From positions 1 to 64,000 of the forward strand of contig NZ_JABBND010000022.1 of NCBI RefSeq assembly GCF_012933465.1: a stretch of DNA of 64,000 nt. The letters are read 5' to 3'. The position numbers were made by a program, and so were the translations under genes. Positions 11,769 to 21,803 of the stretch are shown in pieces (the first letter of the stretch is position 1; every line of letters begins with the position of its first letter). The DNA is from Actinomycetospora sp. TBRC 11914 (lineage in GTDB: Bacteria; Actinomycetota; Actinomycetes; Mycobacteriales; Pseudonocardiaceae). Below the pieces are notes generated by a model. It saw only the letters and a program-made list of their open reading frames with translations, ran no database searches and was not told the DNA's origin.

Positions 11769-12560
11769 GTGGACAGGGGCGAGCGAAGCGACGGGGGGCG
11801 TGTCGAGACGCTGCCCCTCTTCCCGCTGGGCACGGTGCTGATGCCCGGGGCGCCGCTCCCGCTGCACATCTTCGAGCCCCGCTACCGGCAGCTGACCATC
11901 GACCTCGTCACGGGCGCCGTGTCCGGCAAGCAGTTCGGGGTGGTCGCGGTCCGCGAGGGCTGGGGTCCCGACGACGGGCCGGAGGGGCTGCACGAGGTCG
12001 GCTGCACGGCCGAGCTGCGCGAGGTCCGGCGGCTGCCGGACGGTCGCTTCGACGTCCTCACCGTCGGGGACCGCCGGTTCCGGCTGCTCGACGTCGACGA
12101 CACGACGGCCCCCTACCTCGTCGCCAACGTCGAGTGGGTGCCCGACATCGAGGGCGACGACCCCGCCGAGCTCGAGCCCCTCGAGCGCGCCGCCCGCGCC
12201 GCGCACCGCCGCTACTGCACGACGGCGCGCACCTACCGGCGCCGCGCGGACGCCGAGGCCGGCGGGGCCACCGACCTCGAGGCCGACGCGGAGGTCGCGG
12301 CCGTCGAGGAGCCCGAGGAGGAGGCGCCGCCGGCCGGCGGGGAGCACGAGCCCGCCGCGGCGGCCGTCCTGGCCCACCTGCTCGCGGCCGACTGCCTGCT
12401 GCCCCTGGGCGACCGTCAGGAGATCCTCGAGCAGACCTGCCCGAAGAAGCGCCTGGAGCTCGTCTCGCACGCGATGGCCCGCGAGGCCGAGCTGCTCGGG
12501 CGGCTGCACGCGGTGTGGGCGCCGACGGCGAAGTTCGCGGTGCCCTCCAGCGACAACTAG
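11769..12560 (+). CDS. LON N-terminal-domain (substrate-binding) protein
   Basis: The 263-residue protein matches the stand-alone LON substrate-binding domain family: [28 protein letters not shown] near the start, then FGVVAVREG and a strand-rich core. It has neither an AAA+ module nor the Ser-Lys protease dyad of Lon, so it is not a protease. An acidic insertion (about 165-195, Glu/Ala-rich) interrupts the C-terminal helical part. It starts at GTG 11769; the first residues (RGERSDGG) are encoded by a 20-bp sequence that recurs at the end of the 26445-27506 gene. Its 3' end overlaps the convergent DUF2567 gene by 4 bp. Cellular role unknown. Confidence 0.85.
11776..11795 (+). repeat. 20-bp repeat, copy A
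   Basis: GGGGCGAGCGAAGCGACGGG at the 5' end of the LON-like gene. It is identical except for one base to 27459-27478, inside the 3' end of a luciferase-like monooxygenase gene. Both copies are in coding sequence. Confidence 0.65.
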
Positions 12561-13180
12561 GGCTCGCGCCCCAGATCGTCGGCGCCGACCGTGATCGCGC
12601 ACAGCAGGTAGGCGAGCACCGCGCCGATCCCGGCGCCCAGCACCGTCCACCAGGAGCCGATCTCGGCGGGCAGCGTCACCAGCGTGGCCGGGATCGGGGG
12701 GCCGCCGGTGCCGCTCGCGCTGACCTCGGCGCGGTCGAGCAGGACGCCGATCGCCTGCCGGTCGGTCAGCGGGCCGGCGAGCCAGGTCCCGACGCGCGCC
12801 GCCACCCAGGCGGCGGCCGTCGACGCCACCGCGACGCCGACCAGCACCACCGGCCCGCGCCGGGTCCGGATCCGCCACGCCAGGGCCCCGACGACGACGC
12901 CGTACGCGGTCACGAGCAGGAAGAAGACGGCGGTCGCGTCGAAGACGTGGTCGGACTCGGCCGCGAGCTGGGCGCTCGCACCGGTCGCCGTCGTCACCGT
13001 GGCCTGGCCCGGGGCGACGAGCGCCCACAGCAGGCCGAGCAGCAGGCCGCCGACGAGCACCGCGACCACGATCCGCAGCGCCGGACGCAGGTCGCCGACG
13101 AGCTCGCGGCGGGTCAGCACCCCGTCGGGGGTCTCGGCCACGAACTCGTCGGCGGGGAACTGCTCGGCGCCCACGGTCAC
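12557..13180 (-). CDS. DUF2567 membrane protein
   Basis: The 207-residue protein has about four membrane segments: residues 36-57 ([20 protein letters not shown]), 82-102, 108-132 and 172-196. A periplasmic loop lies between the last two. It resembles the mycobacterial DUF2567 family (Rv1591-type), which sits in the same bioB-bsaP neighbourhood; the synteny is recalled. It starts with GTG. No function is known. Its stop overlaps the convergent LON-domain gene by 4 bp. It lies just downstream of bsaP on the same strand and probably belongs to the bioB transcript. Confidence 0.8.
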
Positions 13181-13205: not shown

Positions 13206-13421
13206 TCACCGCTGGGCCCGGCTCGCGCTGGTCGTCTCGCCGTGGCGGCTGCACCGTGCGGTCCAGCCCATAGGGTCGACCTGCACGACCATCCGGCGGG
13301 CGCACTCCGGGCAGTAGCGCGGCGGGTCGATCAGGGACAGCCGCGCCCGGCACCGGTCGTGGTCGCCGGTGGCGGCCTCGCCGCCGCAGAAGGAGCAGTA
13401 CGTGCTCACGGTCGCCGTCAC
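13206..13421 (-). CDS. bsaP: Biotin synthase auxiliary protein
   Basis: This 71-residue Cys-rich protein lies 10 bp downstream of bioB. Cysteines at 9, 12, 24, 37, 40 and 57 form two CxxC pairs (CSFC, CPEC) plus CRARL and CSRHGET, the pattern of Rv1590/BsaP. From published work as I recall it, BsaP helps mycobacterial-type BioB turn over, probably through an iron-sulphur cluster. The small size, immediate bioB linkage and Cys pattern support the assignment. The start is GTG 13421; a second GTG four codons later (VSTYCSFC) is possible. Confidence 0.85.
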
Positions 13422-13431
13422 AGGATCGTCG

Positions 13432-14472
13432 TCAGAGGGTGTCGTTGAGGGCCTTGATCGGCATCTTGAGCGAGTCCAGCATCTCCAGGTCCTGCTCGGC
13501 CGGCCGCCCCAGGTTCGTCAGGTAGTTCCCGACGATGATCGCGTTGACCCCGCCCAGCATCCCCTGCTCCGCGCCGAGGTCGCCGAGCGTCAGCTCCCGA
13601 CCGCCCGCGAAGCGCAGCACCGTCCTCGGCATCGCCAGCCGGAACGCCGCGATCGTCATCAGCGCGTCCGGTCCCTGCGGCACGTCGAGGTGCGCGAACG
13701 GGGTTCCGGGGTTGGGGATCAGGAAGTTCATCGGCACCTCGTCGGGCTCGAGCTCGGCGAGCTGCACCGCGAACTCGGCGCGCTGCTCGAGGGTCTCCCC
13801 CATCCCGACGATGCCCCCGCAGCAGACCTCCATGCCCGCGGCCCGCACCATCTGCAGCGTCTCCCAGCGCTCCTCCCAGGTGTGGGTCGTGACCACCTCC
13901 GGGAAGTGGCTGCGCGCGGTCTCCAGGTTGTGGTTGTAGCGGTGCACGCCCATCGCGGCGAGCTCGTCGACCTGGGCCTGGGTCAACATCCCCAGCGAGC
14001 AGGCCACGTTGATGTCGACCTCGGCGCGGATCGCCGCGACCCCGGCCCGGATCTGCTCCATGAGCTTCTCGTCGGGGCCGCGGACGGCGGCGACGATGCA
14101 GAACTCGGTCGCGCCGGTCTTCGCCGTCTGCTTCGCCGCCTCGACCAGGCGGTCCTTGTCGAGCCACGCCGCGCGCACCGGGGAGTCGAACAGGCCCGAC
14201 TGGCTGCAGAAGTGGCAGTCCTCCGGGCACCCGCCGGTCTTGAGGCTCACGATGCCCTCGACCTCGACGTCCGGACCGCACCAGCGCATCCGCACCTCGT
14301 GGGCCAGCGCCAGCGCCTCGGTCAGGCGCTCGCCGGGCAACCGCAGCACCTCGAGCACCTGCGCCTCGGACAGCCCCTCGCCGCGCTCCAGGACCTGCTC
14401 CCGGGCGACCGCGAGGATGTCCCCGCCGGTGCCCTGCCCGGTCTGCCTGGCGGTGCCGGTGCTCGCCGTCAC
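13432..14472 (-). CDS. bioB: Biotin synthase
   Basis: BioB is the radical SAM enzyme that inserts sulphur into dethiobiotin to make biotin. The 346-residue protein has the CxxxCxxC cluster motif at C82, C86 and C89 ([12 protein letters not shown]), [19 protein letters not shown] and the C-terminal [13 protein letters not shown]. The GTG at 14472 is preceded by AAGGAG at 14479-14484 with 6-bp spacing, which decides the start against an upstream extension. It is followed by bsaP and a DUF2567 gene, and preceded by bioD 58 bp away. Confidence 0.96.
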
Positions 14473-14530: not shown

Positions 14531-15226
14531 TCACGGGAGGGGCGGGACCCACTGGCCGCCCAGGACGGGATGCAGGCCACACCTCGACGCCGTGAGGAAC
14601 CGTTCGGGGTCGGCGCCGCCCAGCCCGGCCGGCAGGACGCCGAGCAGGGGTGCGCCGGTCACCGTCGGGAGATCGGCGAGGTTGGTGCGCTCGGCGAGGT
14701 CGGGGGCGTCGGGGTAGGCGCCGACGACGGTGCCGGCGCAGGTGAGGCCGCGCCGGGCCAGGGCCTCGGCCGTCAGGGCGGCGGTGTTCAGCACGCCGAG
14801 CCCGGCGCTGGCGACGACGAGGACCGGGGCACCGAGCGCGGCGGCGACGTCGGCGAGGGTCTCCCCGTCGTCGTTGATCCGGACGAGCAGCCCGCCGGCG
14901 CCCTCGACGAGGAGGAGGTCGGCCCCGTCGCGCGCGATGTCGGCGACCGCGTCGGTGACGGCGGCGACGCGGAGGGGCGGCAGCCCGCTGCGGCGGGCCG
15001 CGGTCGCGGGGGCCAGGGGCTCGGGGTAGCGGGCGAGCTCGCGGGTGACGACCGAGGGGCCGACGAGGCGGGTGACGTCGGCGAGGTCGCCGGGGGCGCC
15101 GGGCTCGATCCCGGTCTGGGCCGGCTTGAGGACGACGACGCGGTCCCCCGCCGCCGCGGCCACCGCGGCCAGGGCCGCCGTCACCACCGTCTTCCCGACC
15201 CCGGTCCCGGTGCCCGTGACGATCAT
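14531..15226 (-). CDS. bioD: Dethiobiotin synthetase
   Basis: BioD closes the ureido ring of dethiobiotin from 7,8-diaminopelargonate, CO2/bicarbonate and ATP. The 231-residue protein starts [19 protein letters not shown], with P-loop GTGTGVGKT at residues 4-12. It carries LKPAQTG (substrate lysine) and the [12 protein letters not shown] switch region. ATG 15226 is used here; a GTG 9 bp upstream (15235) is a real alternative and has TAGGCT (TAnnnT) at 15244-15249 in leaderless position. It is transcribed toward bioB. Confidence 0.94.
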
Positions 15227-15235
15227 GGTCCGCAC

Positions 15236-15513
15236 GGGCCCGGAGCCTAGTGACCTCGTGGCGCGCGGTCGGCGGCCCGGACCGACGCGCCCCGCACACA
15301 CTCCGCCCGGGGCAGCGGACGAATCCACGGACACCTGCGCGTCACGCACACATCCCGGGGTCCGGCCCACGGGGCTCGGTGTGCGGCGCGCGCAGGTCCC
15401 CCAGAACCGGTCACGCCGATCGTCGGAGTGTGTGCGGCGCGCGCAGGTCCCCGACGTCGGAGAGCGGGCCAGGGTGCCTGCCTCCCCGGACACCACCGGC
15501 GACCCGGGATGGG
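15236..15513. repeat. Intergenic region with degenerate GTGTGYGGCGCGC repeats
   Basis: The gap between bioD and the zinc-ribbon gene holds two near-perfect direct copies of TGTGCGGCGCGCGCAGGTCC, at 15380-15399 and 15431-15450 (51 bp apart). Two degenerate inverted copies lie at about 15285-15303 and 15331-15351. No gene is apparent. The unit may belong to a dispersed intergenic repeat family; only these copies are visible here. Confidence 0.6.
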
Positions 15514-15775: not shown

Positions 15776-16954
15776 TCACCGGCTGAGCACGGTCCCCCGC
15801 ACCCCGGGGAGCACCTCGGCCAGGACGCGGTCGACCAGCGCGAGGTCGGCGGTGGAGAGGTCCGCGCGAGCCGTCAGCCGCAGCCGCGACGTCCCCTCGG
15901 GGACCGACGGCGGCCGGAAGCACCCGGCCCGCAGGCCCGCCGTCGCGCAGGCGTCCCGCGCTGCGGTCGCGAGTTCAGGCTCCCCGAGCACGACGGGCAC
16001 CATCGCGGCCGTCGGCGCGGCGACCCCCGCCCACGGCGCGGCCGACCGGGCCGACGACGCCACCGCGACCGCGGCCGCGTGCAGCGCCGCCACGCGCTCG
16101 GGCTCCTCGCGCAGCACGTGCAGCGCCGCCAGCGCCGCACCGGCCGCGGCGGGCGCCAGCCCGGTGTCGAAGATGAACGAGCGCGCGGCGTCGACGAGGT
16201 GGGCGACCACGTCCGCGTCGCCCAGCACCACCCCGCCCTGCGAGCCCAGCGACTTCGACAGGGTCGCGGTGACGACGACACCCCGCTCCCCCGCCAGCCC
16301 GACCTCGGCCACGAGACCGGCGCCGGGCGCCGACGCCGGCCCCCGCACCCCGAGCCCGTGGGCGTCGTCGACCAGCAGCACCGCCCCGCGCGCCCGGCAC
16401 ACCGCGGCGAGCTCGCGCAGCGGCGCCAGGCCCCCGTCCACGGAGTCGACGCCGTCGGTCACCACCAGCCGCCGGGTCTCCGGGGCGGCCGCGAGCACCG
16501 CGTCGACGTCCGCCGGCACCGAGCACCGCGACACCACGACGCGGGCCCGGGAGAGCCGGGCCGCGTCCACCAGCGAGGCGTGCGCCGCGACGTCGGAGAC
16601 GACGAGCGCGCCCCGTCCCGACAGCGCCGTGACCGCGCCGAGGTTGGCCGTGTAGCCGGAGGAGAACACCAGCCCCGCCTCGGCCCCGCCGAACGCCGCC
16701 AGCGCCTCCTCGAGCTCGGCGTGCAGGCGCGTCGACCCGGTGACCAGCCGCGATCCCGTCGACCCGGCGCCCCAGGTCCGGGTCGCCGCCACGGCCCCCT
16801 CGACGACGCGGGGGTCGCGGGCCAGGCCGAGGTAGTCGTTGGAGGCGAGGTCGACGAGCGGCTCGACGACCTCGCGCGGCGACAGCGTCCGGCGCAGGCC
16901 CGCCGCCCGGCGGGCCCGCGCCGTCTCGTCCAGCCACGCCAGCGGGTCGGTCAC
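15776..16954 (-). CDS. bioF: 8-amino-7-oxononanoate synthase
   Basis: BioF joins pimeloyl-ACP/CoA and L-alanine, releasing CO2, in the first committed step of biotin ring assembly. The 392-residue PLP enzyme has LASNDYLGLARD, FSSGYTANLGAV, the cofactor aspartate region LLVDDAHGLGV and the Schiff-base lysine K234 in TLSKSLGSQGG. Its GTG start overlaps the stop of the SulP-carbonic anhydrase gene by 4 bp, so their translation is coupled. Confidence 0.95.
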   Translation of the reverse strand: MTDPLAWLDETARARRAAGLRRTLSPREVVEPLVDLASNDYLGLARDPRVVEGAVAATRTWGAGSTGSRLVTGSTRLHAELEEALAAFGGAEAGLVFSSGYTANLGAVTALSGRGALVVSDVAAHASLVDAARLSRARVVVSRCSVPADVDAVLAAAPETRRLVVTDGVDSVDGGLAPLRELAAVCRARGAVLLVDDAHGLGVRGPASAPGAGLVAEVGLAGERGVVVTATLSKSLGSQGGVVLGDADVVAHLVDAARSFIFDTGLAPAAAGAALAALHVLREEPERVAALHAAAVAVASSARSAAPWAGVAAPTAAMVPVVLGEPELATAARDACATAGLRAGCFRPPSVPEGTSRLRLTARADLSTADLALVDRVLAEVLPGVRGTVLSR

Positions 16955-19329
16955 GCCGACACCCTAGGCAGGGCTCCTCCCAGCCGCTCCGTCGACGCGG
17001 GGACGAACCGGTCACCCTCGAGCACCGACATGCGCGCGGTCGGGATGTCGAAGAAGAGCCCGACGAGCCGCACCCGCCCCTCGGCGAGGGCCGCCGCGAC
17101 GTCCGGGTGCCGGGCCAGCCGGTCGAGCTGGACGGCCACGTTGACCATGGCCAGCCCGTCGACCTCGTCCAGACCCTCCCGGCGCGCCTGCTCACCCACG
17201 GGATGGCCGGCCCGGAAGCGCGCCAGGCTCTCCGAGGCACCGCCGAGCCACCGCCCGAGGGCGCCCCCTGCCCCGTCGCCCGGGAACCCCGTTCCCGACG
17301 GCCCCGCTCCGCGCAGCACCGCCTGGACGGCGCCGCACCCGGAGTGGCCGCACACCACGAGGGTCGGCACGTGCAGCGCCTCGAGGGCGTACTCGACGGT
17401 CGCCCCCACCGAGTCGTCGCCCGTGCCGCCCAGGGGCGCGAGGTTGCCGACGTTGCGGACGGTGAACAGGTCGCCCGGTCCGGACGAGGTGATGACGTTC
17501 GGGACGACGCGGGAGTCGCTGCACGTCAGGAACCACGCGTGCGGCGCCTGACCGTCGGCCAGGTCGGAGAGGTACGGCGCGACGAGGCCCGCGGCGCGGC
17601 GGTGGTACTCGCGGAGCCCGGCGAGGATCGGGTCCGGGGTGCCGCACCCGTCGTCGCACGGGTCGGTCACCGCGTGGCCGTGGCCGCGGCCGTCGTCGTC
17701 GTCGTGGGAGGCCTGCCAGGTCGACCACGGCGCGAGGAAGCGCGGCACCGGCCCCGGACGCCGGGAGCCGGGGCCGCCCGCCGTGGCGTCCCGCCGCGCG
17801 ACGAGGCCCATCGTCCCGACCTCGTCGACGCGCACCGAGCCGCCCGCGACCCAGCGGCGTGCCACCCACTCCGAGAGGTGGTCGTAGGCCGCGTGGTCGA
17901 GGTAGTCGGTGACGAGGTCGACGACGACGTCGGCGTCCGCGGGGACCTGCGCGAGCCGGCGCGCGAGCCGCGGGACCGACGGGAAGCACAGCGCGCCCTC
18001 GACGACGACGTGCCACGGCCCGCCGTCGACCGGCTCCGCCACCTCGATCGACGCCCACACCACGCGCCGCAGCACCAGCAGCAGGGCGAGCCCGAGCCCG
18101 AGCAGCACGCCGGTGAGCAGGTCGACAAGCACGACGCCGAGGATCGTCACCACGTAGACCGGCAGCTCGCCGTGGCGGTGCAGCTCGCGCATGTGCCCGA
18201 CGTTCACCAGCTTCGCGCCGATGTGCACGAGCAGACCCGCGAGCACCGCCATCGGGATCTGCTCGACGAGGCCGAGCAGCGCCACCGAGAAGACGACGAT
18301 CCACAGGCCGTGCAGCACCGCCGAGACCCGCGAGCGCGCGCCGGCGGCGGCGTTGGTCGAGCTCCGGACGATGACCCCGGTGATCGGCAGCCCGCCGAGC
18401 AGCCCGGAGACGGTGTTGCCCGCGCCCTGGCCGAGGAGCTCGCGATCGAGGTCGGAGGTGGTGCCGGGACGGAGCTTGTCGACGGCGACGGCCGAGAGCA
18501 GCGACTCGATCGAGGCGATGACCGCGACGGTGAGCACGCCGACGACCACCCCGCCGAGGTCGGAGTCGGGCAGCACCGGCAGCGCGATCGCGTCGAGGAC
18601 CGACCCGCCGACCTCCACCCGCTCCACCGGCAGCGCCAGCACCCCGGCCGCCACGGTGAGCAGCGTGACCGCGAGCAGCGGCGCGGGGACGCTGCGGACC
18701 CAGGCGGGCACCGAGTGCGGCAGCCGCGGCCAGGCGAGCAGGATCGCGACGACGGCGAGGCCGAGCGCGGCCGCCGGACCGTGCACCGCGAGCAGCTGGC
18801 CGGGCAGGGCGAGCACGTTGGCGATCGCGTCGTCCTGCTGCTCGCCGCCGAGGACGACGTGCAACTGCCCGAGCACGATCGTCACGCCGATCCCGGCCAG
18901 CATCCCGTGCACGACGGCGGGCGAGATCGCCAGCGCGGCCCGTCCGGCCCGGGAGAGCCCGAAGAGGATCTGCAGGACGCCGGCGGCGACGGTGATCGCG
19001 CACGTCACGCCCCAGCCGAAGCGGGTGACGAGGTCGGCGACGATCACCGTGAGCCCGGCCGCCGGCCCGCTGACCTGCAGCGGCGATCCACCGAGGGCCC
19101 CGGCGACGAGGCCGCCGACCGCGGCCGCGATGAGCCCGGCGGTGAGCGGGGCGTTCGAGGCGACGGCGATGCCGAGCGAGAGCGGCACCGCGACGAGGAA
19201 GACGACGAGCGAGGCGGGCAGGTCGTAGCGGAGGTTCGCGCGGAGCGCTGAGGGGCGGAAGTCGGGCAGCCGGAAGTCGGGCAGGCGGAAGTCGGGCAGG
19301 CGGAGATCGGGCAGGCGGGGAGCGCTCAT
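16951..19329 (-). CDS. SulP-type anion (bicarbonate/sulfate) transporter fused to beta-carbonic anhydrase
   Basis: This 792-residue fusion has a SulP membrane domain (about residues 25-420, ten or more hydrophobic segments, beginning NLRYDLPASLVVFLVAVPLSLGIAVASNAPL), a STAS-like region (about 440-530) and a C-terminal beta-carbonic anhydrase domain from about 590. Zinc-site residues are the Cys-Asp pair in CSDSR and the His and Cys in VVCGHSGCGAV. The domain order matches the mycobacterial Rv3273-type protein (recalled). It should move bicarbonate or sulfate and interconvert CO2 and bicarbonate at the inner face. It sits between bioA and bioF and overlaps the bioF start by 4 bp. The N-terminus holds a fourfold LPDxR repeat. 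Confidence 0.93.
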   Translation of the reverse strand: MSAPRLPDLRLPDFRLPDFRLPDFRPSALRANLRYDLPASLVVFLVAVPLSLGIAVASNAPLTAGLIAAAVGGLVAGALGGSPLQVSGPAAGLTVIVADLVTRFGWGVTCAITVAAGVLQILFGLSRAGRAALAISPAVVHGMLAGIGVTIVLGQLHVVLGGEQQDDAIANVLALPGQLLAVHGPAAALGLAVVAILLAWPRLPHSVPAWVRSVPAPLLAVTLLTVAAGVLALPVERVEVGGSVLDAIALPVLPDSDLGGVVVGVLTVAVIASIESLLSAVAVDKLRPGTTSDLDRELLGQGAGNTVSGLLGGLPITGVIVRSSTNAAAGARSRVSAVLHGLWIVVFSVALLGLVEQIPMAVLAGLLVHIGAKLVNVGHMRELHRHGELPVYVVTILGVVLVDLLTGVLLGLGLALLLVLRRVVWASIEVAEPVDGGPWHVVVEGALCFPSVPRLARRLAQVPADADVVVDLVTDYLDHAAYDHLSEWVARRWVAGGSVRVDEVGTMGLVARRDATAGGPGSRRPGPVPRFLAPWSTWQASHDDDDGRGHGHAVTDPCDDGCGTPDPILAGLREYHRRAAGLVAPYLSDLADGQAPHAWFLTCSDSRVVPNVITSSGPGDLFTVRNVGNLAPLGGTGDDSVGATVEYALEALHVPTLVVCGHSGCGAVQAVLRGAGPSGTGFPGDGAGGALGRWLGGASESLARFRAGHPVGEQARREGLDEVDGLAMVNVAVQLDRLARHPDVAAALAEGRVRLVGLFFDIPTARMSVLEGDRFVPASTERLGGALPRVSA
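19256..19315 (-). repeat. 4 x 15-bp tandem repeat (LPDxR) at the SulP N-terminus
   Basis: Four tandem 15-bp units at 19256-19270, 19271-19285, 19286-19300 and 19301-19315 (plus-strand unit CGGAAGTCGGGCAGG) encode LPDLR-LPDFR-LPDFR-LPDFR in the cytoplasmic tail before the first membrane segment. Confidence 0.85.
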
Positions 19330-19617
19330 GGGCGTGGGGAGTCCTCGGGGTGGACGGCGGCGGAGACCTGGCCGGGAGCCAGGAACAGGACGAATCGGAC
19401 TGCCGCGAGTGTGCCGGATCTCGATCGTGCACAACCCTGTTCACCTGCCGTTGACGTGACTCCCGGTACCGGATTCCGCGGCCGGGCACGGCGGGGCCCG
19501 CGACGGGTGAGCCGGCGCCCGCCCGGTGATCACGCTGGGCCGAACGCCGCGCCCCGGGTGTGGTGACCCGACCCGCACTCCTGGGGCGATCGGGTGATTC
19601 GTCCGGTTCGGGCGGCG

Positions 19618-20910
19618 TCAGCCCGCCGCGGCCGCCGCGACGACGCCGCCGGCGATGCGGACCACGTCGTCGGGAGTGCTGACGAACGGCGGCATCGTGT
19701 AGACGAGGTCCCGGAACGGGCGCAGCCACACCCCTTCGGCCTCGGCGGCGGCCTGGGCGGCGGGGACGTCGACGTCGTGGTCGAGCTGGACGACGCCGAT
19801 CGCGCCGAGCACCCGGACGTCGCGCACCCCGGGGAGGTCCCGGGCGGGAGCGAGGCCGTCGCGCAGGAGACCGCCGATCCCGGCCACCTCGGCGCGCCAG
19901 TCCCGGCGCAGCAGCTCGTCGACGCTGGCGAGGGCGACCCGGGCCGCGAGGGGGTTGCCCATGAACGTCGGGCCGTGCATCAGCCCGCCGCCGCCGCGCT
20001 CGTCGCTGACCGCCGCCGCCACCGCGGGGGTGCACAGGGCCGCGGCCAGCGTGAGGTAGCCGCCGGTGAGCGCCTTCCCGACGCACAGCACGTCGGGCGC
20101 GATCCCCGCGTGGTCGGCGGCGAAGAGCTCACCGGTGCGCCCGAAGCCGGTGGCGATCTCGTCGAGCACGAGCACGAGGTCGTGGCGGTCGGCGATCTCC
20201 CGCAGGGCGCGCAGGTGACGGGGATCGTGGAAGCGCATGCCCCCGGCGCCCTGGACGACGGGCTCGACGATGATCCCGGCGAGCTCGTCGGCGTGGTCGG
20301 CCGCGACCGCGGCGAGGTGCTCGTCGTACGCGGCGGTGTACTCGGCCGGCGGGACGTCGGCGAACACCTGCTCGGGCAGGAAGCCCCGCCACAGGGCGTG
20401 CATCCCGCCGTCGGGGTCGCACACGCTCATCGCCGCGAACGTGTCCCCGTGGTAGCCGCCGCGCCAGGTCATCATCCGGGTCCGGCCCGGCCGGCCGTGG
20501 GCGCGCTGGTACTGCAGGCACATCTTCACTGCGACCTCGACCGAGACCGACCCGGAGTCGGCGAGGAAGACGTGGCGCAGCGGCTCGGGGGTGATCTCGA
20601 CGAGTCGCGTCGCGAGGGCGACCGCCGGGTGGTGGGTGAGGCCGCCGAACATCACGTGGGCCATCTCGTCGGTCGCGGTCCGCAGCGCCGCGTCGAGCGC
20701 GGGGTGGCGGTAGCCGTGCACCGCGGCCCACCACGAGCTCATGCCGTCGACGAGCTCGCGGCCGTCGTCGAGGGTCAGCCGCACCCCCGACGCCGAGGCC
20801 ACCACCAGCGGGTCGGTGCGGCCGGGCATCGGGCCGTAGGGGTGCCAGACGTGCTCGCGGTCCCGGACGCGCAGGTCGGCGGGTCGGGGCGGACCGGGAC
20901 GTGTCGACAC
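19618..20910 (-). CDS. bioA: Adenosylmethionine-8-amino-7-oxononanoate aminotransferase
   Basis: BioA transfers an amino group from SAM to KAPA to give 7,8-diaminopelargonate. The 430-residue class III aminotransferase starts near [11 protein letters not shown] and has [16 protein letters not shown] (the WW pair is typical of BioA), [27 protein letters not shown] and the PLP lysine K279 in [15 protein letters not shown]. The start is GTG 20910, only 17 bp from the start of the divergent PaaX-like gene, so the two promoters must overlap the coding starts. No clear ribosome-binding site is visible; a leaderless mRNA is possible. Confidence 0.94.
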
Positions 20911-20927: not shown

Positions 20928-21803
20928 ATGGCGGCGGGGGGCGTGACCAACGGGTCGGGCTCGGCACCGACCGGATCGGCGGAGGACGCCTTCTCCCGCC
21001 GCCGCGAGGTCGCGGCGACGAGCGCCCGGTCGCTGCTGCTGACCGTGCTCGGCGAGTTCGTCCTGCCCGCGGGCGAACCGGTGTGGACGCAGAACCTGCT
21101 CGACGCGCTCGGCGCGGTCGGGGTCGAGGAGAAGTCGGCGCGCCAGGCGCTCGCGCGGACCGCGGCCGACGACGTCGTCGTCTCCGAGCGGGCCGGACGA
21201 CGGGTGCGGTGGTCCCTGACGCCCTCCGGGCGCCGGCTGCTCTCCGAGGGCGCGGAGCGGATCTACGCCCACGGGACGCCGCGCCCGCCCTGGGACGGCC
21301 GCTGGCTGGTGCTCGTCGTCAGCGTCCCCGAGGCCCAGCGCGCCCTGCGCCACCAGCTGCGCACCCAGCTCGCGTGGGCCGGCCTCGGCTCCCCCGCCCC
21401 CGGGGTGTGGGTGTGCCCGGACGCGGCGCGGGTCGACGAGGCCCACCGGGCGCTGGCGGACGTCGGGCTCGACGAGGCGGCGCTCGTCGTCGTCGGCGGC
21501 ACCCACGGCGGCCTGTCCGACGCCGAGCTGGTCGCGCAGGCCTGGGACCTGCGCGACCTCGAGGCCCGCTACGCCGAGTTCGTCGACCGTTTCGCGGCCC
21601 TCGAGCCGGACCCCGCCGACCCGGCCGCCGTCCTCGGGGCGCAGGTCCGGCTGGTCGACGCCTGGCGGCGCTTCCCGTTCCTCGACCCGCAGCTCCCGGC
21701 CGAGCTGCTGCCCCCGGGCTGGGCCGGGGCGCGGGCGGCCGAGGTCTTCCACCGGCGCCACGAGCAGTGGTCGGCCGCGGCGGGGCGCGCCTTCGGGTCC
21801 TGA
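20928..21803 (+). CDS. PaaX-family transcriptional regulator
   Basis: The 291-residue protein has the three-part PaaX layout. An N-terminal winged helix (about 25-100) includes [46 protein letters not shown] central segment begins [27 protein letters not shown]. The C-terminal alpha-helical domain contains [24 protein letters not shown]. PaaX proteins repress phenylacetate catabolism by sensing an acyl-CoA; here no paa genes are nearby. The next gene is a luciferase-like oxidoreductase, and a perfect 18-bp palindrome lies between the two. ATG 20928 or GTG 20943 may be the start. Confidence 0.83.

Follow-up and report, generated by a model that had tools for sequence, protein, structure and literature searches.

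A gene for a SulP–STAS-like–beta-carbonic anhydrase fusion protein, here called SulPCA, is located among the biotin synthesis genes of Actinomycetospora sp. TBRC 11914, in a DNA stretch of 64,000 nucleotides (contig NZ_JABBND010000022.1, positions 1 to 64,000) that is referred to as the window. The protein is of a known type, and its linkage to the biotin locus is wide and old: in a large group of the Pseudonocardiaceae the gene lies between bioA and the next bio gene of a bioA–(bioF)–bioD–bioB...nadA neighborhood, and it has kept this place through much gain and loss of genes. By a modest degree we lean to the view that SulPCA resides in a biotin/NAD neighborhood as a separately regulated transporter of inorganic carbon with a general role.

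Domain structure and relatives of SulPCA

The window genome has a size of 6.5 Mb and its closest named relatives are Actinomycetospora. On the minus strand, bioA, SulPCA, bioF, bioD, and bioB follow each other in this order (Table 1). An earlier interpretation of the DNA letters by a model (the sequence-only reading) had placed a SulP–beta-carbonic anhydrase gene between bioA and bioF on the same strand, which was confirmed by the open reading frames (ORFs) and by Pfam. A single ORF of 792 aa contains Sulfate_transp (PF00916; 8.4e-72) and Pro_CA (PF00484; 3e-36), with the SulP part at residues of about 33-425, a STAS-like part at about 427-503, and the beta-carbonic anhydrase (CA) at about 599-766. 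The zinc and catalytic motifs of the latter, C-x-D-x-R and H-x2-C, are present as CSDSR at residue 603 and HSGC at residue 662. A second in-frame start candidate is a TTG at 19434. The AlphaFold model gave structural matches to BicA and to full-length SLC26 chains, and the membrane domain of this predicted model has the SLC26/SulP fold. BicA, the cyanobacterial SulP bicarbonate transporter (PDB 6ki1), was also the top PDB sequence match, from which SulPCA differs by carrying a CA and by reaching only 142.2 bits against the NCBIfam BicA model with its cut-off of 880.

SulP–beta-CA fusions were reportedly treated by Felce and Saier in 2004. Like SulPCA, Rv3273 (mtCA3) of Mycobacterium tuberculosis is a single chain of about 760-790 aa that begins with a sulfate-transporter-type domain and has a beta-CA at its C-terminus (PMC6834203). 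In the Mycobacterium and Rhodococcus relatives examined (loci L014-L020 and L024) no biotin genes are present in the stored flanks, whereas SulPCA of the window is situated between bioA and bioF.

The fused CA has its zinc-site residues in most family members examined. In A. cinnamomea (L013, 7001-9225) the SulP and CA parts lie in different frames, representing a split or a frameshifted fusion. The CA motif of L083 reads CADSG instead of CxDxR, and this carbonic anhydrase may be inactive. For several Pseudonocardia genomes a split into separate SulP and CA parts was also considered; the loci checked (L063, L074, and L075) have one frame with one stop and thus carry fusions.

Conservation of the linkage to biotin genes

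The order paaX / bioA–SulPCA–bioF–bioD–bioB was found in 12/12 Actinomycetospora loci (the window, L002-L011, and L013), and for this reason the neighborhood of SulPCA and the bio genes is not due to chance. The fusion beside bioF or bioA, which the sequence-only reading had suggested to look for in other genomes, is thus not unique to this genome. For the extent beyond the genus, 200 genomes of the family were sampled and the position of SulPCA was compared with bioF and then with bioB. Among the matches listed, 110 of the 200 genomes carry both SulPCA and bioB, 30 bioB alone, and 21 SulPCA alone; in 40 of the 110, SulPCA precedes bioB on the same strand at a distance of at most 10 kb, while 35 (including one of genus g3) have the two genes at 10-100 kb from each other, 9 at more than 100 kb, and 26 on different contigs. 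The genomes with SulPCA within 10 kb of bioB belong to 11 genera (g1, g5, g9, g10, g15, g16, g21, g25, g27, g42, and g44). Genus g3 has bioA–SulPCA–bioF–bioD, with bioB 81 kb away in the single genome in which both are on one contig, and the linkage therefore comprises 12 genera of one family.

Two layouts occur. The first, bioA–SulPCA–bioF–bioD(–bioB), is that of Actinomycetospora (g1), Pseudonocardia (g5), and g3. The second, bioA–SulPCA–bioD–bioB, is a cluster without bioF in nine genera (10 loci examined), and SulPCA is located 19-50 bp upstream of bioD in eight genera and 2.57 kb upstream in a ninth. We rejected the view that only Actinomycetospora, Pseudonocardia, and g3 have the linkage and that SulPCA is 75-330 kb away in all other genera of the family, because wider flanks add the nine genera. 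Those distances misled since they were measured to bioF alone, the gene lying away from those clusters; the bioF-only distances and the 25/35 count also mix SulPCA subfamilies.

For 18 other genera of the family, one to three SulPCA loci per genus were examined, and their fetched flanks contain no bio gene; the same is true for the fetched flanks of five loci of a second family. Elsewhere in the class, another 40 SulP loci, some with flanks ending at contig ends, gave 0/40 with a bio gene nearby. The class sample contains 36 genomes besides that of the window with both SulP and bioF. In genome G346 (L100) a SulP gene without CA is convergent to bioD–bioF, which was treated as chance and not as linkage, being the sole case within 10 kb among 40 genomes of G346's own family for which both genes were listed.

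A PaaX-family gene stands divergent from bioA, or from SulP if bioA has been lost, in Actinomycetospora and also in the majority of the Pseudonocardia-type loci examined, and the PaaX-family protein is a candidate for a local regulator. The nadA gene is about as faithful a neighbor of SulPCA as the bio genes. Since nadA serves NAD synthesis and not biotin, linkage alone is weak evidence of a shared function. The literature searched yielded no publication that deals with SulP or CA in a biotin locus, which is not proof of absence.

Overlap, gaps, and predicted promoters

From a 4-bp overlap the sequence-only reading had concluded that bioF is co-translated with SulPCA. The overlap exists in the window, where GTGA combines the GTG of bioF with the TGA of SulPCA. 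As a conserved trait, co-translation did not hold up: among the 12 Actinomycetospora loci the overlap is found only in the window genome, the gaps of the other 11 being +21 to +123 bp (8 loci) or +1161 to +1219 bp (3 loci), and bioF has a predicted -10 box of its own in 12/12. A 4-bp overlap seen in one genome can be particular to that genome and is by itself no ground for assuming conserved co-translation. Furthermore, gap ORFs examined in 8 loci include genes between SulP and bioF. In two of the three Actinomycetospora loci with the long gaps, an F420-type luciferase-like (LLM) oxidoreductase is encoded on the opposite strand (L006 by family search, L009 by similar sequence), and in Pseudonocardia an opposite-strand methyltransferase gene is present in L072 (family search) and L073 (similar sequence). 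The gaps of L067 and L076, likewise from Pseudonocardia, contain a same-strand gene that is putatively thioredoxin-like by its WCGPC motif. In L065, L066, and L079 the SulP–bioF gap comprises 2.6 kb.

In all 12 Actinomycetospora loci a TANNNT box is located 6-8 nt before the start codon of bioF. According to PMC3898074, this motif is centered 7-12 bp upstream of 73% of the primary start sites in M. tuberculosis, and the box before bioF is predicted to be a form of the leaderless actinobacterial promoter. Altogether, the bio gene after SulP has such a -10 box in 50/52 loci (bioF 12/12 and 21/23, bioD 17/17), which are not independent with several loci per genus, and chance matches are somewhat more likely because one or two candidate starts were tried for each gene. 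In the same loci the box was found in 0/42 cases before bioB, in 0/52 before SulP, and in 0/32 before nadA, the lone Actinomycetospora nadA having no candidate start; the background rate is 38 of 5107 ATG/GTG codons in Actinomycetospora loci. Because the box also occurs in loci whose slot lacks SulP (bioF 7/7; bioD 7/7 after bioA and 0/7 after bioF), the predicted promoter of the downstream bio gene appears to be independent of SulPCA. Absence of SulP in this census means absence from the slot, and the genome of L199 (G036) has SulP elsewhere.

Upstream of SulPCA, most loci have a gap of 0.2-0.5 kb, and in the window bioA and SulPCA are separated by 288 bp without overlap. In an alignment of 12 species, a block at about 19439-19472 within this gap is common to the window and its five nearest relatives and absent in the other six. 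In the window genome this block has one exact match and two at 2 mismatches and is not a genome-wide motif; it is a candidate for the SulPCA promoter or operator. With regard to a separate terminator and promoter before bioF, which the sequence-only reading had regarded as speaking against its proposal, the predicted promoter box is present, while terminator and sigma-70 scans, which are weak in GC-rich actinomycetes, found no site. Read-through from SulPCA into bioF is possible.

Gain, loss, and origin of the slot

SulP and the bio genes were lost independently of each other in both directions. Among 62 Pseudonocardia-type genomes SulP is present in 33/44 with bioF and in 12/18 without (Fisher p=0.54), and in those at least 95% complete the values are 29/37 and 9/13 (p=0.71). 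In the 33 genomes with both genes, SulP and bioF are within about 1.2 kb of each other in 27, at 2.6-5.2 kb in 4, and on other contigs in 2. SulPCA is found beside paaX and nadA without bio genes in L080, L083, and L084, likewise in L086, there without CA, and a SulPCA–nadA pair without bio genes occurs in five loci of g34. The genes bioA and SulPCA were kept without bioFDB in L081 and L082, and SulPCA–bioD occurs without bioA and bioB in one g15 locus and in 6/6 fetched g27 loci, these being six of the eight listed genomes without bioB. Conversely, bio genes are present without SulP in L088-L093, L098, and L099, and bioA–bioD–bioB without SulPCA in the slot in L194, L195, and L197-L201. In six loci (L068-L073) SulP precedes bioF and lacks the CA part. 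On a PaaX tree of 41 hand-chosen loci (2/43 had been dropped because they lack PaaX, L085 and L087), bioF changes 5 times and SulP 6 times, and SulP moves with bioF in 0/3 independent contrasts on supported branches, which are too few for a significance test.

In the 200 genomes of the family, presence of any SulP match was not associated with bioB (122/140 with and 55/60 without bioB, p=0.47). For strong SulP matches such an association is seen (see below), which may be explained by ancestry through clade confounding, because seven genera (g6, g13, g14, g26, g36, g39, and g46) account, among the matches listed, for 31 of those 37 genomes that lack both bioB and a strong SulP match.

A tree of 52 SulP domains was used to ask for one origin of the slot or several. 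Slot copies share one half of this tree with copies elsewhere in the genomes of g17, g19, g23, g32, g33, g41, g45, mycobacteria, and rhodococci. A single clade of slot copies alone was rejected (p-AU 1.7e-9), as the g32 copy L125 nests among them. One clade consisting of the slot copies and L125 as an escaped copy was not rejected (p-AU 0.086), a grouping that was picked after viewing the tree.

Possible functions of SulPCA in the biotin locus

In the reading that we prefer, SulPCA would be an inorganic-carbon transporter of the Rv3273 architecture (SulP–STAS-like–beta-CA). Its SulP part most likely imports bicarbonate, which the tethered CA with its intact zinc-site residues would equilibrate with CO2 at the inner face of the membrane. 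The 0.2-0.5 kb gap between bioA and SulPCA, together with the conserved block, makes it probable that SulPCA has a leadered promoter of its own there. The next bio gene would start from its own leaderless promoter, for which the box is present in the DNA and transcription is presumed, with some read-through possible. SulPCA would then serve carboxylation generally and not BioD or BioF specifically. The domains and the fold, the own box of the next gene, the intervening genes, the two-way dissociation, the equally faithful nadA, and further beta-CAs (three matches in the window genome besides SulPCA) tip the balance somewhat towards this reading. Several points weigh against it. The models for DauA, sulP, and BicA all match SulPCA under their cut-offs, and bicarbonate is a substrate that we infer. 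The leaderless promoters at bioF and bioD are predictions, and two g3 loci (L094 and L095) are without the box. The linkage is old, has persisted through extensive rearrangement, and involves one and the same slot in all 12 genera; in g16 even two tandem SulPCA genes are in the slot between bioA and bioD (L111, 7464-12086). Family-wide, a strong SulP match is present in 120/140 genomes with bioB and in 23/60 without (p=6e-11, before correction for ancestry). Ten SulP copies located elsewhere form a separate deep subfamily (support 100/100), so that the family-wide count understates how tight the linkage is within the subfamily of the slot. Repeated arrival in one slot, if it occurred, would favor a functional link.

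These observations on the slot, the tandem genes, the strong matches, and the subfamilies, together with the six loci in which SulP lost the CA and yet kept its slot, fit another explanation that we regard as possible but clearly less probable: the locus would pair the cofactor biotin with its co-substrate bicarbonate, allowing a joint adjustment for acetyl-, propionyl-, and pyruvate carboxylases. Equally tentative is that the joint control would be exerted via the local regulator or the shared context, without co-translation. Lineages that gave up biotin synthesis might then have kept the transporter half for carboxylases still in need of bicarbonate, and Pseudonocardiaceae might set cofactor and co-substrate from one locus, an extension that is doubtful to the same degree. 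Evidence to the contrary comes from the missing SulP–bioF association inside Pseudonocardia, from the 0/3 contrasts, from the missing family-wide association of any SulP match with bioB, from the distances of 10-100 kb or more than 100 kb between SulPCA and bioB in the 35 and 9 genomes mentioned above (SulPCA being beside bioF and bioD in the one of g3), and from the upstream block, which is not a genome-wide motif. That SulP carries another biotin-relevant anion, either a pimelate-type dicarboxylate precursor or sulfate as sulfur source, with the CA being secondary, is unlikely in view of the zinc-site residues of the CA fused in most members, of BicA as top PDB sequence match, and of SulP being retained in loci without bio genes. 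We consider least probable, and in fact highly improbable, the dedicated supply proposed by the sequence-only reading, in which SulPCA feeds CO2/bicarbonate to BioD and handles the CO2 of BioF. It would agree with the 19-50 bp between SulPCA and the gene of the CO2-using BioD in eight genera, with the 4-bp overlap in the window, and with the association of strong SulP matches with bioB. Per biotin made, the one CO2 set free by BioF is offset by the one that BioD consumes, and biotin is needed in tiny amounts, so that the two reactions balance 1:1 at a tiny flux. Moreover, SulP is in place without bioF, bioD, and bioB in the fetched 17-19 kb of L080, L083, L084, L086, and the five g34 loci, and where their genomes were covered there is no bioB genome-wide among the matches listed. 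Conversely, the genomes of L088-L093, L098, L099, L194, L195, L197, L198, L200, and L201 have bio genes and, among the matches listed, no SulP. The six loci that lost the CA with SulP still before bioF and the Pseudonocardia counts (p=0.54) also speak against a dedicated supply.

If cofactor and co-substrate are indeed paired, the locus would illustrate in a simple way how a cell matches a cofactor with the substrate that the cofactor activates, and it would offer a starting point in the search for inorganic-carbon regulation in actinomycetes. If SulPCA is only a long-lived neighbor, the locus is still a natural experiment, as bio genes, transporter, and CA were each lost separately in close relatives.

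Further features of the locus

Genes and predicted elements of the locus are listed in Table 1. For bioF, the name is based on homology and synteny because its score is under the NCBIfam equivalog cut-off, whereas bioA, bioD, and bioB each exceed the equivalog cut-off of their model.

Table 1. Genes and predicted sequence elements at the biotin locus of the window
Feature	Position	Strand	Basis and remarks
DUF2567 gene	12557-13180	-	after bsaP candidate, itself after bioB
bsaP candidate (biotin synthase auxiliary protein-like), 71 aa	13206-13421	-	cysteine spacing C-x2-C-x16-C
bioB	13432-14469	-	TIGR00433, 360.6 bits, above cut-off 225
bioD	14531-15229	-	TIGR00347, 100.5 bits, above cut-off 83.3
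Predicted bioD -10 box TAGGCT	8 nt before GTG two codons upstream of annotated bioD start	-	
Cys-rich ORF, 68 aa	15509-15712	-	two CxxC pairs; directly after bioF
bioF (8-amino-7-oxononanoate synthase)	15776-16954	-	TIGR00858, E 3.8e-108; 361.5 bits, under cut-off 426.45
Predicted leaderless-type -10 box TAGGGT	16961-16966	-	6 nt before bioF GTG, inside 3' end of SulPCA
SulPCA (SulP–STAS-like–beta-carbonic anhydrase fusion), 792 aa	16951-19329 from ATG	-	Pfam, AlphaFold model, structural matches, zinc-site motifs
bioA–SulPCA intergenic region, 288 bp	19330-19617	-	conserved block at about 19439-19472
bioA	19618-20910	-	TIGR00508 (NCBIfam equivalog), 527.6 bits, above cut-off 405
PaaX-family regulator	20928-21803	+	Pfam; divergent from bioA

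With the actinobacterial biotin locus the window shares bioA, bioF, bioD, and bioB, followed by the bsaP candidate and the DUF2567 gene, all on one strand; it differs by SulPCA after bioA, and nine other genera differ by the cluster without bioF. We take Rv1591 to be a DUF2567 protein. PMC11099021 gives the mycobacterial order bioB-bsaP-rv1591 and for Rv1590 a cysteine spacing as in the bsaP candidate. This candidate had no match above cut-off to a curated family. The 68-aa Cys-rich ORF was also considered as bsaP and was dropped, as the ORF at 13206-13421 fits better; it had no Pfam or NCBIfam match, and counterparts after bioF are present in L002 and L003. The gap between bioF and bioD (15270-15459) contains a 23-bp exact direct repeat with copies 51 bp apart (15379 and 15430) as well as three inverted pairs.
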